Assembly: GCF_029193885.1 (NCBI RefSeq)
Contig: NZ_JARFVB010000002.1
Coordinates: 124,001 to 188,000, forward strand
DNA: 64,000 nt
Direction of reading: 5' to 3'
From: Flagellimonas yonaguniensis
GTDB taxonomy: Bacteria > Bacteroidota > Bacteroidia > Flavobacteriales > Flavobacteriaceae
Positions 36,567-41,500 of the stretch are shown piece after piece. The notes below the pieces were generated by a model. It made no database searches and had not been told where the DNA came from. It saw nothing but the letters and a program-made list of their open reading frames with translations. Position 1 is the first letter of the stretch, and the number at the start of each line of letters is the position of its first letter. The position numbers were made by a program, and so were the translations under genes.

Positions 36567-36644
36567 TTATTTCGAGTGATTAACTTTTGGTGAATCGTAT
36601 CGTGAAATAAGTGGTCTCGATACATTTTGAAACAAGTTTCAAAA
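36567..36644. repeat. Compound palindromic element between trpC and trpF
   Basis: TTATTTC (36567-36573) is inverted at GAAATAA (36604-36610). A second perfect 9-bp hairpin TTTTGAAAC-AA-GTTTCAAAA spans 36625-36644, flanked by CTCGATACA and ACACTCGACC. The TTTCGAGTG at 36571 echoes the TTTCGAG of the repeat inside trpF. I read this as one or two adjacent small palindromic elements. Confidence 0.6.
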
Positions 36645-36670
36645 ACACTCGACCTGACAAGACATTAACT

Positions 36671-37321
36671 ATGAAACTAAAGATTTGCGGCATGAACCAT
36701 AATCCAGAAGAGGTGGCAGCATTGCAACCCGATTATTTGGGTTTTATCTTCTGGGAACCTTCCTCCCGTTACTTTTCGGGAGAGATTCCAGCATTGCCCA
36801 GTTCCATCAAAAAAGTAGGGGTTTTTGTGGACGCACCTTTGGAAGAGGTCTTGGAAAAAATAGGCCATTATCAATTGGATGCCGTACAACTCCATGGAAA
36901 AGAAAGTGCTGAATACTGCCATGAACTAAAAGAAAGATTTCTGTCATTTCGAGTACAGTCGAAAAATCTAGAAATCATCAAAGTATTTTCCATCAAGGAT
37001 GATTTTGATTTTGATGTATTGAATGATTTTGAGGCGGCCTGTGATTTTTTTCTTTTCGACACCAAGGGAAAACTCCCTGGAGGTAATGGTTATACCTTTG
37101 ACTGGTCCATTTTGAAACAATATCCATCCGACAAACCTTACTTTTTAAGCGGTGGCATTGGATTGGATTCCAAGGAAAAATTACAGAGCTTCTTAAACAG
37201 TCCCGCTTCCGAAAATTGTTTTGCCATTGACGTGAACAGTAAATTTGAGACGGCCCCAGGCCTAAAAAACATAGATGACATAAAAGTATTTATCGAATCG
37301 CTGAAGAGCGTTCGCAACTAA
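36671..37321 (+). CDS. trpF: Phosphoribosylanthranilate isomerase with internal repeat
   Basis: The 216-residue isomerase starts [20 protein letters not shown] (catalytic Cys in KICGM) and has [58 protein letters not shown] and SGGIGLDS. It starts at ATG 36671; the open frame back to GTG 36611 is repeat sequence. Residues ~88-99 (around L91-S-F-R-V-Q-S-K98) are encoded by a 24-bp repeat also found in the UDG-like gene. The insert falls between the helix after LHG and the strand LEIIKVFSI. The frame is intact and the active-site residues remain. Confidence 0.95.
36942..36965 (+). repeat. In-frame 24-bp repeat inside trpF (copy 1)
   Basis: The copy runs from TGTCATTTCGAG to AGTCGAAAA and contributes LSFRVQSK to TrpF. 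It matches 40951-40974 (opposite strand) at 20 of 24 positions, and all four differences are transitions. Confidence 0.75.
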
Positions 37322-37335
37322 AAAATAAGACACCA

Positions 37336-38520
37336 ATGAAAAGCTATCATGCTGATGAACGGGGATACTACGGCGAGTTCGGGGGAGCTTTTATCCCGGA
37401 GATGCTGTATCCCAATTGCGAGGAGCTTCGTCAAAACTACCTCGGCATCATGGAAGAACCTTCTTTCAAAGAAGAGTTCCATCAATTGTTGAAGGATTAC
37501 GTTGGTAGGCCAACACCTCTTTATTTTGCAAAGCGCCTATCCGAAAAATACAATACGAAAATCTACCTGAAACGGGAAGATCTCTGTCATACGGGAGCAC
37601 ACAAGGTCAATAATACCATCGGACAAATTCTAATGGCCAAAAGATTGGGCAAAAACAGGATCATCGCTGAAACAGGTGCAGGTCAGCACGGGGTGGCGAC
37701 AGCAACCGTTTGCGCTTTGATGGGGATCCAATGTGTGGTGTACATGGGGGAAATCGATATTGCACGCCAAGCACCGAACGTGGCCCGTATGAAAATGTTG
37801 GGAGCCGAGGTTAGACCAGCCACATCGGGCAGTAAAACCTTAAAAGATGCGACAAACGAAGCGATTCGCGACTGGATCAACAATCCTGTGGACACACATT
37901 ACATTATTGGTTCCGTAGTAGGGCCGCACCCTTATCCGGATATGGTGGCCCGTTTCCAATCCGTAATCTCAGAAGAGATGAAAAACCAGCTCCAAGAAAA
38001 AGAAGGCAGGGAAAACCCAAATTATGTGGTGGCCTGTGTGGGAGGTGGAAGTAATGCTGCTGGAGCATTTTATCATTACTTGGATGTTCCCGAAGTGGGT
38101 ATCATTGCCGTTGAGGCGGCCGGAAAAGGAATTGATTCCGGTAAAAGTGCCGCCACATCGGCCTTGGGCAAAGTAGGTATTATTCACGGCAGTAAAACCT
38201 TGTTGATGCAAACACAAGATGGACAAATAACCGAGCCCTACTCCATTTCAGCAGGATTGGATTACCCTGGAGTCGGCCCCATGCACGCCCACTTGTATAC
38301 TTCGGGTCGTGGAGAGTTCATTTCCATTACCGATGATGATGCTATGAAGGCAGGATTGGAGCTTTGTAAATTAGAGGGTATCATTCCCGCTATTGAATCG
38401 TCCCATGCACTGGCCATTTTTGAGGACCGCAAGTTCAATCCCGATGATATTGTGGTAGTGAATCTATCCGGTCGTGGGGACAAAGATTTACAGAACTATA
38501 TTGATTATTTCAAGTTATGA
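37336..38520 (+). CDS. trpB: Tryptophan synthase beta chain
   Basis: The 394-residue PLP enzyme condenses indole with serine. Motifs include [39 protein letters not shown] (PLP Lys in HK), [34 protein letters not shown] (phosphate loop), EAAGKG and NLSGRGDKD. It lies 14 nt after trpF. Its stop overlaps the trpA start by 4 nt (ATGA). Confidence 0.98.
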
Positions 38521-39278
38521 ACAGAATCAAACAAAAACTACAGGAGGACAAAAAAATCCTCTCCATATATTTTTCAGCAGGTTACCCCAATTTGGGTGAC
38601 ACTGTAAAAATCATCCAAGATTTGGAAAAAAACGGTGTGGACCTCATCGAGATAGGTTTGCCGTTCAGTGACCCCTTGGCGGACGGACCCACCATCCAAG
38701 AAAGTTCCACGGCAGCACTTAAAAATGGAATGAACACCGCTTTGCTCTTTGATCAACTGAAAGATATTCGAAAAACGGTATCGATTCCCCTTATTTTGAT
38801 GGGGTATTTTAATCCAGTGCTACAATATGGTGTGGAAGAATTTTGTGCCCAATGCGAAGAAATCGGGATTGACGGACTGATTCTTCCCGACCTGCCATTG
38901 GATGTGTACAAAGAGGAGTATGAGGGCATTTTTAAAAAACATGGACTGATCAATGTTTTCCTAATCACTCCTCAAACAAGTGACGAACGCATCAAAGCCA
39001 TAGACGAAGCGTCTGAAGGATTTATTTACATGGTAAGTTCGGCCAGTACCACAGGGGCCAAACAGGGGTTCGGCAGTGAACAATCCGACTATTTCAACCG
39101 TATTGCCAGCATGGGGTTGAACAACCCCCAAATTGTCGGTTTCGGCATCAGTAATGCAGAAACTTTTGGGCAAGCGACACAAAAAGCGAAAGGAGCTATC
39201 ATTGGTTCAGCATTCATTAAATATTTAACAGCAAATGGAGTGGATGACATTAGTGACTTTGTGAAGCAAATTCGTTAA
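38517..39278 (+). CDS. trpA: Tryptophan synthase alpha chain
   Basis: The 253-residue TIM barrel cleaves indole-3-glycerol phosphate. It shows [32 protein letters not shown] (catalytic Glu and Asp), [32 protein letters not shown] and [13 protein letters not shown]. The 4-nt overlap with trpB indicates translational coupling and matched subunit output. It is the last trp gene. Confidence 0.98.
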
Positions 39279-39311
39279 ATTTCAACTTTTAAAATCAAGA
39301 CGATTTGTTTC

Positions 39312-40808
39312 ATGAAAAAAATGCTCTTCCTTGGTTCCCTATTCCTTGGTTTTTCCCTTTTCGCACAAGATGATGTTGCTATAAAATCACAAGTGGCAGA
39401 TGCCATCAATGAAATTCGGGAATTTGTCGCCATTCCCAATGATGCGCTGGATGCGGCCGATATTGACCGAAATATCATGTGGCTCAAGCGTAAATTTGTC
39501 GATAGGGGTTTTAACACTGCCGTTTTGGATACAGAGGGACTTCCCTTGTTTTTTGCGGCAATGCCCATGACCGATGAAAAACCTACCATACTTATTTATA
39601 TGCATTTTGATGGGCAGTCCGTAGACCCATCCAAATGGAATCAGTCGAATCCTTACCAAGTGGTTTTGAAAGCCCCAAAAGGAGATGGGTTTGAAACGGT
39701 TTCTTTTGATGAAATGGACGATGACATCAATTACGATTGGCGTTTGTTCGGACGTTCCACTTCAGATGACAAATCGCCCATCGTAATGCTCTTGAACGCC
39801 GTGGACCTCTTGAAGAAGGATGGCAAGGAACTTCCGTTTAACATCAAGGTTATTTTGGACAGTGAAGAGGAAAAGGGCAGTAATCCCCTACCTGCCGCAG
39901 TAAAACAATATCGGGAACTTTTGGAATCAGACTTTTTAATAATCGTGGACGGCCCGGTACATGCTTCTGAAAATCCAACCGTTGTTTATGGATGTCGTGG
40001 CATCACTACCTTGACCCTGACCACCTACGGCCCCATAAAACCGCAACATAGTGGACATTATGGCAATTATGCCCCGAACCCTGGGTTCCAGTTGGCACAA
40101 TTGCTGGCAACCATGAAAGATTCCGATGGCAAAGTGACCATTCCTGGCTATTATGATGGTATTTCCATTGATGAAAAAACCGACTCCATTTTAAAAAGCG
40201 TTCCCGATAGCGACGAGGCTATTGCAGAAAAGCTTCAGTTTAAAACAGCTGAAAAAGTAGGTGGTTTTTATCAGGAGGCCTTGCAATATCCTTCCCTCAA
40301 TATTCGCGGATTGAGCTCTGGTTGGGTGGGTAACAAGGCTCGAACCATTGTTCCGGAAAGCGCCACGGCCGAGCTGGACTTGAGGTTGGTCATGGAAAGC
40401 GATGGCAACCGGTTGAAACAATTGGTCAAAGATCATATTACCAAACAGGGATACAAAGTATTGGATCATGTACCTTCCAAAGAGGAGCGTATGCAATTTG
40501 ACAAAATCATAACCGTGGAAGAAGGCAGTGTAACCGATGCTTTCCGCACAGACTTGGATAATCCGTACGGTAAGTTTATTGTGAAAACCTTAAGCCAAAG
40601 CTTTGGTAAAGAAGTAATTCAAATCCGTACCATGGGCGGCACCGTACCTATTTCTCCTTTTATCAACGAACTGAAAATCCCTGCTTTTATCGTTCCCGTG
40701 GTAAATCCAGACAACAATCAACATAGTCCCAACGAAAATGTAAAAATTGGTCAGTTGGCTTATGGGATTAAGGCATTTTATGGGATTCTATCTTCTGTAA
40801 TGAATTAA
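39312..40808 (+). CDS. Secreted M20-family metallopeptidase
   Basis: The 498-residue protein has a signal peptide (MKKMLFLGSLFLGFSLFAQ) and the M20 catalytic pattern: YMHFDGQSVDPSKW (metal His and Asp), GRSTSDDKSPIVML, LDSEEEKGS (general-base Glu pair), GHYGNYAPNPG, and the late metal His region NNQHSPNEN. It probably trims peptides in the periplasm. Its stop overlaps the convergent gene's stop by 4 nt (TTAA). Confidence 0.93.
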   Translation: MKKMLFLGSLFLGFSLFAQDDVAIKSQVADAINEIREFVAIPNDALDAADIDRNIMWLKRKFVDRGFNTAVLDTEGLPLFFAAMPMTDEKPTILIYMHFDGQSVDPSKWNQSNPYQVVLKAPKGDGFETVSFDEMDDDINYDWRLFGRSTSDDKSPIVMLLNAVDLLKKDGKELPFNIKVILDSEEEKGSNPLPAAVKQYRELLESDFLIIVDGPVHASENPTVVYGCRGITTLTLTTYGPIKPQHSGHYGNYAPNPGFQLAQLLATMKDSDGKVTIPGYYDGISIDEKTDSILKSVPDSDEAIAEKLQFKTAEKVGGFYQEALQYPSLNIRGLSSGWVGNKARTIVPESATAELDLRLVMESDGNRLKQLVKDHITKQGYKVLDHVPSKEERMQFDKIITVEEGSVTDAFRTDLDNPYGKFIVKTLSQSFGKEVIQIRTMGGTVPISPFINELKIPAFIVPVVNPDNNQHSPNENVKIGQLAYGIKAFYGILSSVMN

Positions 40809-41500
40809 AAAAACTCCCTATACTGCTTTACCCTGAAATCAAGTGTATTGAAATCAGGTTTTTTACTTTTAAGGTCTTTATAGGCTTGCAAACTTCCAAC
40901 TGCACGATTGGCGGCGCCTGAAGGGGCGGTCAGGGAAACGGTTTTTATCGTTCTCGACTGCGCCCGAAATGACAAATTAGAATCAAGTGGCAATTCTAAA
41001 TGATGGATCCGAGGCACTTCATTGGAGACAACTCTCAATTTTAGACCGTGTTCCTTCAACTGTCTCCGAAAGAAGTATTCCGGGCCATTTTTACTATTTC
41101 CGCCAGTGAACAATAATGTTTTGATATTCGGGTATTTTTTCAAGTAACCCACCAAATCGCGAAGGACTACATTTTGCATACCCAAATCGGAGGCGTCGAT
41201 TTTTTCTCTTTCGGCACTTTCAACTATATCGCAAACTCCTATTTTATGCTTGACAAGAAACTTTTTTCGTTGCTCAACTGCCTCTTGCGTAGTCTCATAT
41301 TTTAAACCCAAATCAAATATTCTATCAAGAATGGGCCAAAGCTGACCGTTACAACTCCCATAGCAGAAATCCACATCTTGCGGCTTTAATTCTCCCGTGG
41401 TAAATCGTGGTGGAGGCAAGGTTCCAACTATCAATTTAGTGGCCTCGGGTAATAAAAAGGGCGCATAAGGGTGGGTGTGCTTGAATGGTTGTTTGCTCAA
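40805..41500 (-). CDS. Uracil-DNA glycosylase superfamily protein with internal repeat
   Basis: The 231-residue protein has IVGTLPPPRF near the N-terminus, KKFLVKHKIGVCDIVESAER, TLLFTGGNSKNG and C-terminal TVSLTAPSGAANRAVGSL, consistent with a UDG/MUG-like fold of the flavobacterial type. It probably excises damaged or mismatched bases, but its substrate is uncertain. Residues ~174-183 (including L176-S-F-R-A-Q-S-R183) come from a 24-bp repeat shared with trpF, placed just before the strand TIKTVSL. The reading frame continues through it. Confidence 0.85.
   Translation of the reverse strand: MSKQPFKHTHPYAPFLLPEATKLIVGTLPPPRFTTGELKPQDVDFCYGSCNGQLWPILDRIFDLGLKYETTQEAVEQRKKFLVKHKIGVCDIVESAEREKIDASDLGMQNVVLRDLVGYLKKYPNIKTLLFTGGNSKNGPEYFFRRQLKEHGLKLRVVSNEVPRIHHLELPLDSNLSFRAQSRTIKTVSLTAPSGAANRAVGSLQAYKDLKSKKPDFNTLDFRVKQYREFF
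40951..40974 (-). repeat. In-frame 24-bp repeat inside the UDG-like gene (copy 2)
   Basis: On the minus strand it runs from TGTCATTTCGGG to AGTCGAGAA and encodes LSFRAQSR. Relative to copy 1 in trpF it has four transitions. It is read in the same frame and the same orientation relative to its host gene. Confidence 0.75.

Follow-up and report, generated by a model that had tools for sequence, protein, structure and literature searches.

The stretch analysed here, referred to below as the window, comprises 64,000 nucleotides of Flagellimonas yonaguniensis (contig NZ_JARFVB010000002.1, positions 124,001 to 188,000), and contains two copies of a short palindromic repeat, here called family A, that lie in frame within two unrelated genes: trpF, encoding phosphoribosylanthranilate isomerase, and a gene for a UDG-like protein (Table 1). 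The repeat resembles repetitive extragenic palindromic (REP) sequences, and this report concerns its fate, and that of other repeat families, in the loops of conserved proteins across the genus. The two 24-base copies, TGTCATTTCGAGTACAGTCGAAAA (36942-36965, plus strand) and TGTCATTTCGGGCGCAGTCGAGAA (40951-40974, minus strand), lie where an earlier sequence-only reading of the window had placed them, and differ at four of 24 positions, all by transitions. The common reading frame proposed in that reading was also recovered, with LSFRVQSK forming residues 91-98 of TrpF and LSFRAQSR residues 176-183 of the UDG-like protein. A degenerate pattern covering both copies matched twice in the window, compared to a mean of 0.01 matches in 100 dinucleotide shuffles.

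The genome contains a single match to trpF. The nearest named records belong to the Flagellimonas/Allomuricauda group, and the TrpF of the window is 88% identical to that of F. oceanensis. Outside the insert, nonsynonymous divergence (dN) was about 0.02-0.14 in the six pairs compared, against a synonymous divergence (dS) of at least 0.25; trpF is therefore under purifying selection. The UDG-like protein had no Pfam match at 0.001 and matched the DNA-deoxyinosine glycosylase family TIGR04274 weakly (41.4 bits, under the cut-off of 80). In the predicted structure of TrpF (mean predicted local distance difference test score, pLDDT, of 89), residues 91-98 run from the end of helix 80-93 into the loop that leads to strand 101-108, with a pLDDT of 72 for this block and comparably low values only at 131-150 and the C-terminus. 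In a (beta-alpha)8 barrel, this alpha-beta loop is located on the face away from the active site. The model of the UDG-like protein, of moderate confidence (mean pLDDT 71), places the segment in and just after the turn between strands 164-171 and 182-189. Both models agree with the earlier proposal that the segment stands ahead of a beta strand.

Table 1. Repeat copies in the window and the genes that carry them
Feature	Position	Strand	Remarks
trpF (phosphoribosylanthranilate isomerase), host gene	36671..37321	+	PF00697, 2.9e-31
Family A REP-like repeat in trpF	36942..36969	+	Reads LSFRVQSKN; 0 mismatches to TGTCATTTCGAGYRYAGTCGARAAATCT; single, half of a head-to-head pair
UDG-like host gene	40805..41500	-	Start codon uncertain; conserved within the genus
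Family A REP-like repeat in UDG-like gene	40951..40974	-	Reads LSFRAQSR

Anatomy and spread of the repeat families

A genome-wide search, which the sequence-only reading had suggested as a check, returned 77 copies of TGTCANNTCGAGCGNAGTCGAGA from the genome of the window (4.29 Mb, 44 contigs) when up to three mismatches were allowed, and none for the reversed pattern. Together with the shuffle control in the window, this ruled out that the two copies are alike by chance. The consensus of the 77 aligned copies was TGTCA-NN-TCGAGCGCAGTCGAGA-N'N', in which the TGTC head was nearly invariant (T in 76, G in 70, T in 75 and C in 76 copies). In 62 of the 77 copies, bases 6-7 could pair with the two bases that follow the core, far above the shuffled values (mean 10.2, highest 20 among 5000 shuffles), and this covariation supports a hairpin. 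By inspection, the stem has eight positions (A-N-N-T-C, a tandem G-A mismatch, and G), with A-T as the first pair and covariation in the second and third, and closes on a loop of six bases (CGCAGT). In the region of the tail, position 26 was T in 43 and C in 18 of the 77 copies, and later positions were mixed.

The 77 copies resolved into 59 elements, among them 18 head-to-head pairs that account for 36 copies; within these pairs, 56-78 bp long, the starts lay 33-55 bp apart. No other pair arrangement was present among the 77 copies within 120 bp. A natural pair folded as DNA to -22.8 kcal/mol (z -7.6), forming one long hairpin. The repeat unit is often a head-to-head pair, of which trpF in this genome holds one half. 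Pair members never shared bases 6-7 (none of 18 identical, shuffled mean 3.06, P=0.03), a weak signal, as if unlike subtypes were favoured.

At one mismatch or fewer, family A was present in 34 of 36 genus genomes, the window's own included, and in one of 23 genomes from other families of the order, with no control matches. A second complete genome, G005 in our numbering, held 89 copies, corresponding to 66 elements of which 23 were pairs. Family B, of the type CGTCATGCTGAAC-TCG-TTTCAGCATC, gave 22 matches in the window's genome compared to one for its control; inspection of its copies revealed a loop of five and a stem of the CGTC type, and the full element folded as DNA with a z of -4.4. Family D was represented there by four copies at up to three mismatches, the patterns of A and D being sufficiently alike that mfd of four genomes was called both. 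We also observed a 21-base palindrome, its length a multiple of three, at one point of the repeat's loop, including in copies within genes: trpF (G017), the UDG-like gene (G007, G008), metG (G001, G008), hemW (G001, decayed) and, inside a family D repeat, mfd (G016). The combined pattern had 18 matches in seven of the 22 genus genomes searched (G001, G005, G006, G007, G008, G016 and G017), and none in 14 others.

The window's genome contains two Y1_Tnp genes; judged by eye, one looks IS200-like and one resembles a REP-associated tyrosine transposase (RAYT). On their contig the only family A copies lie at 23.9 kb, and the nearest family B copy lies about 7.6 kb from one Y1 gene. The RAYT-like gene (C40, about 71964-72203, L110) is flanked by a different palindrome, read by eye as GCTGGYGCGAGC ... 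GCTCGCGCTAGC; gene and palindrome are a candidate REP-transposase pair unrelated to family A.

Copies within genes were identified with a codon-usage score trained on the window, which called for at least 25 codons and a score above zero on both flanks in one open frame, and by profile matches. On this basis 11 of the 59 elements, two of them those in trpF and the UDG-like gene, had coding-like flanks on both sides in one frame, a count in which copies near gene ends are missed. Open reading frames (ORFs) of at least 120 amino acids cover 0.88 of the window, and in-gene copies are therefore under-represented. Seven of the nine hosts outside the window were named by profile, namely LeuRS, PrmC, PurL, HemW, ArgRS, Mfd and MetRS, the ORFs of Mfd, MetRS and PurL being cut by the ends of the fetched stretches. 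A serine hydrolase ORF had only matches far under cut-offs, an ORF that we take to be GSCFA-type had no NCBIfam match, and the small subunit of methylmalonyl-CoA mutase carries a copy just short of the score threshold. The repeat was in frame in all nine further ORFs, although not always as LSFRxQS, and was also read as SSAVE and CQVERSR types beside SFRAQSR. Among the 66 elements of G005, seven were in ORFs, six of them in genes that carry the repeat in the window's genome too; we read four as being at the same site (argS, GSCFA-type, UDG-like, trpF) and two as lying elsewhere in the gene (purL, mfd), and the seventh host is presumably MetH. A sense-strand bias, suggested by all ten single in-gene copies of the window's genome (0.001 at p=0.5; 0.006 at p=0.6), was dropped after two of five in-gene singles in G005 proved antisense.

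Occupancy of the same loops across the genus

Of the 36 genus genomes, all but G010 and G029 gave a trpF match, leaving 34 in which the loop before IIKVFSI held family A in 13, family B in 11, A and B in tandem in one, family C in one, and nothing recognised in eight. These labels come from fuzzy matches, and six of the 13 A sites, counted as A, also match the overlapping C pattern; by eye, the loop of G023 appears to hold a decayed C. Control matches were rare (flank windows 0 of 70, shuffled segments 1 of 700). Relatives differ at this one site: some have the same half, some the full pair, and others a different family or nothing. Fifteen named genus records, some evidently the same genomes as numbered ones and so not an independent set, comprised 11 with A and four with B by eye. 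The statement of the earlier reading that homologues lack the segment holds for TrpF, where it is missing from five records that lie outside the genus (two Maribacter, Eudoraea, Zeaxanthinibacter and one unassigned Flavobacteriaceae); in the UDG-like protein several congeners have a short turn in place of the repeat. No recognised repeat was present in trpF of G037, from another taxonomic family, and the two best-matching solved TrpF sequences (1dl3, 1lbm/1nsj), which we take to be those of Thermotoga maritima, have a 10-residue gap at the segment.

To place these states on a phylogeny, we used a partly resolved tree of TrpF and the UDG-like protein with the insert columns removed, from which G013 was left out and in which the outgroup G037 sits on a very long branch. 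On this tree the trpF site required at least 12 family changes for five classes (34 rows), and at least five for A versus B alone (23 rows); the starred branches by themselves force at least six changes for family B. Three sister pairs on starred branches differ in family, namely G008 (A) and G034 (B), G007 (A) and G011 (B), and G019 (A) and G024 (C), with protein identities outside the inserts of 93%, 84% and 89%, respectively.

In the UDG-like gene a recognised repeat occupied the site in 13 of 36 orthologues (35 of the genus, own included, and one outgroup), with flank windows at 0 of 72 and at least seven changes on the tree. We further compared eight genes in 80 orthologous stretches, from 9 to 11 relatives per gene, taken from the places listed and mostly from nearer genomes; the serine hydrolase and mutase sites lay outside this comparison. 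A recognised family was present in 49 of the 80 fetched stretches (57 of 88 with the window's own), a figure that is neither an unbiased nor a genome-wide rate, since the genes had been chosen on the strength of a repeat in the window's genome; the controls gave 0 of 176 flank windows and 1 of 1760 shuffled segments. Occupancy was 8/12 for leuS, 8/10 for prmC, 6/11 for purL, 5/11 for hemW, 10/11 for argS, 11/11 for mfd, 4/11 for metG and 5/11 for the GSCFA-type gene, and five of the eight genes (leuS, prmC, purL, mfd and metG) had two or more families. In argS the half that is present differs by eye: it is the first half in the window's genome and the second in several relatives, a pattern that insertion of a whole pair, followed by loss of one or the other half, would leave.

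Two further repeat structures in the window were observed. Between trpC and trpF (36568-36659) there is a palindromic stretch (DNA fold z -2.0) resembling a head-to-head pair with long loops, the right member of which starts on the minus strand at 36659 with TGTCAGGTCGAG; this long-loop repeat was rejected as another high-copy family, having only one genomic copy at up to three mismatches. At 470-2605 there are arrays of 123-bp and shorter related repeats, perhaps encoding a repeat protein.

Interpretation and comparison with known systems

Taken together, the sequence comparisons make it very probable that selfish REP-type palindromic elements persist in loops that tolerate them, undergoing gain, loss of a half, stacking and replacement there, and that these elements are close to the CGTC-tagged REPs, among which RPE-4 and RPE-6 of Rickettsia are counted. 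In such a process, elements would insert widely, and insertions within genes would survive only if they were in frame and in a tolerant surface loop. The tolerant loop could then act as a safe harbour, in which elements may decay, lose half of a pair, or receive further elements beside or inside them, and in which a fresh insertion, or recombination between lineages, might replace them. Most likely, the extra segment is near-neutral ballast for the protein and the elements themselves are selfish. A Rickettsia guanylate kinase with an inserted Rickettsia palindromic element has been reported as active (PMC2229807).

Several observations weigh against this reading. Single copies fold weakly as DNA, with z values of 0.43 for the consensus and -1.45 and 0.49 for the copies in the window. 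No family A copy lies near either Y1-type gene, the one type searched, the nearest being tens of kb away, and mobilisation of family A by a RAYT was rejected on this ground. No target-site duplication could be read in alignments of filled and empty loops. Filled and empty loops differ also in adjoining residues, so that the change is not always a simple addition. The occupancy of trpF is partly inherited, because its labels cluster on the tree more tightly than shuffled labels do (14 changes versus 18.9 for six classes assigned by eye, 33 rows, G003 left out). Only 11 of 31 inner branches of that tree are starred, and the choice of the eight genes also counts here.

Family switching could instead come mainly from homologous recombination of segments of trpF, leuS and other genes between species, with few fresh insertions, an explanation that we regard as possible though not favoured. 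Between G019 and G024, trpF identity is 67% over the 25 columns that follow the site, against 95-100% farther downstream and 88-97% upstream, a profile that hints at a short imported tract. However, trpF of G008 and G034 is 88-100% identical in every 25-column block outside the site (90% and 97% in the ten codons on each side), and yet the families differ. Judged by eye, some five codons separate the starts of families A and B, which implies at least two insertions in trpF; the purL and mfd copies of G005, lying elsewhere in the gene, also do not fit this explanation. It is conceivable, albeit unlikely, that the loops of core enzymes (alpha4-beta5 of TrpF and the LeuRS, Mfd, MetRS, PrmC and PurL sites) are standing sites of REP exchange, where a resident palindrome attracts or is swapped for another by RAYT-independent targeting of REP onto REP or by conversion.

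We consider it improbable that the palindromes are kept for a function of the RNA or DNA in the host gene, such as messenger RNA hairpins that slow the ribosome or tune operon expression, with any REP family being able to serve. Palindromic families of unlike sequence do share one loop, and the full A pair and full B element fold well as DNA, but close relatives carry just one half, or nothing recognisable, single halves fold weakly, and the copies in the window have decayed from the consensus. That the repeats are skipped in translation and never enter the proteins, by analogy with the yeast Magnusiomyces, in whose mitochondrial genes such skipping of palindromic elements has been reported (PMC6649704), seems very doubtful, given that in-gene copies keep the frame and contain no stop, as expected if translated, a property partly built into a census that counted only open frames. 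Next to no probability attaches to an ancestral, family-wide loop in both proteins that was lost in other genera, with the copies alike by chance: the trpF loop is long in most species of the genus, but the 77 genomic copies and the presence of different repeat families at the same loop in different species refute it, the segment being absent from the five records outside the genus and the solved sequences. The sequence-only reading had named the segment in repeat-free orthologues, or a lack of further genomic copies, as outcomes that would tell against it, and neither was found.

The same spots in the loops of housekeeping proteins seem to take up and swap hairpin-forming repeats repeatedly. 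A genus with many sequenced species and different REP families at the same core-enzyme loops would allow element entry and protein tolerance to be read off the tree, and to be tested in ordinary laboratory strains. There is also a warning for annotation, as alignments and structural studies can be led astray by such segments, which occur in tRNA synthetases, TrpF, Mfd and PurL.

Among known systems, described here from the available parts of the papers cited, the closest are the CGTC-tagged REPs (Di Nocera et al. 2013, PMC3733652), which have a stem of 8-9 bp with A-T as first and second pairs, a loop of 4-5 with exceptions in three species, and a short unpaired tail, mostly CCA. Bacteroidetes are among their host phyla, some copies lie inside genes, and RPE-4 and RPE-6 are equated with them; Bacteroidetes are named in connection with REPs in PMC6006769 as well. 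Family A shares with these repeats a CGTC/TGTC unpaired head, a short hairpin, a predominance of head-to-head pairs, intragenic copies, and the lack of a linked transposase. It differs, by inspection, in the tandem G-A mismatch of its stem and in its loop of six instead of 4-5 bases, and because this loop falls outside the definition of the CGTC type, family A is a variant close to CGTC-tagged REPs rather than a member. The available text of PMC3733652 mentions a single instance, recB of two Xanthomonas, in which unlike REPs occupy roughly one site, and not repeated family switching as in Flagellimonas. REPINs and BIMEs with RAYT transposases (PMC6006769) also consist of a head-to-head REP pair forming one hairpin, but no RAYT gene flanked by the family A repeat was found in the window's genome.

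The likeness to Rickettsia palindromic elements (RPEs) drawn in the earlier reading proved apt, given the TGTC head, hairpin and head-to-head pairing in common with the CGTC repeats. Like RPEs, family A is palindromic, lies in frame within conserved protein genes whose other homologues lack it, and is apparently tolerated (PMC3733652, PMC2229807, PMC6649704). Classic RPEs are 105-146 bp long (PMC2229807) and reside in an obligate intracellular alphaproteobacterium, in contrast to the 4.3 Mb flavobacterium studied here, and the likeness is one of description and not of compared RPE sequences. Correia/NEMIS and ERIC/IRU are likewise short inverted-repeat elements, some fused in frame in genes, but their lengths (107-155 bp and 127 bp) and termini set them apart by description (PMC2229807). 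Palindromic elements lying in frame were at one time presented as unique to Rickettsia, and catalogues of intragenic REPs from other bacteria followed. As the earlier reading had supposed for this family, our searches of the open-licence literature yielded no account of REPs in frame within genes of Flavobacteriaceae, nor of their turnover there, while the supplementary intragenic list of PMC3733652 could hold Bacteroidetes cases. Intragenic REPs and in-frame miniature elements are already known (PMC3733652, PMC2229807), and, as far as the open-licence literature searched extends, the turnover of families at the same sites is the new part.

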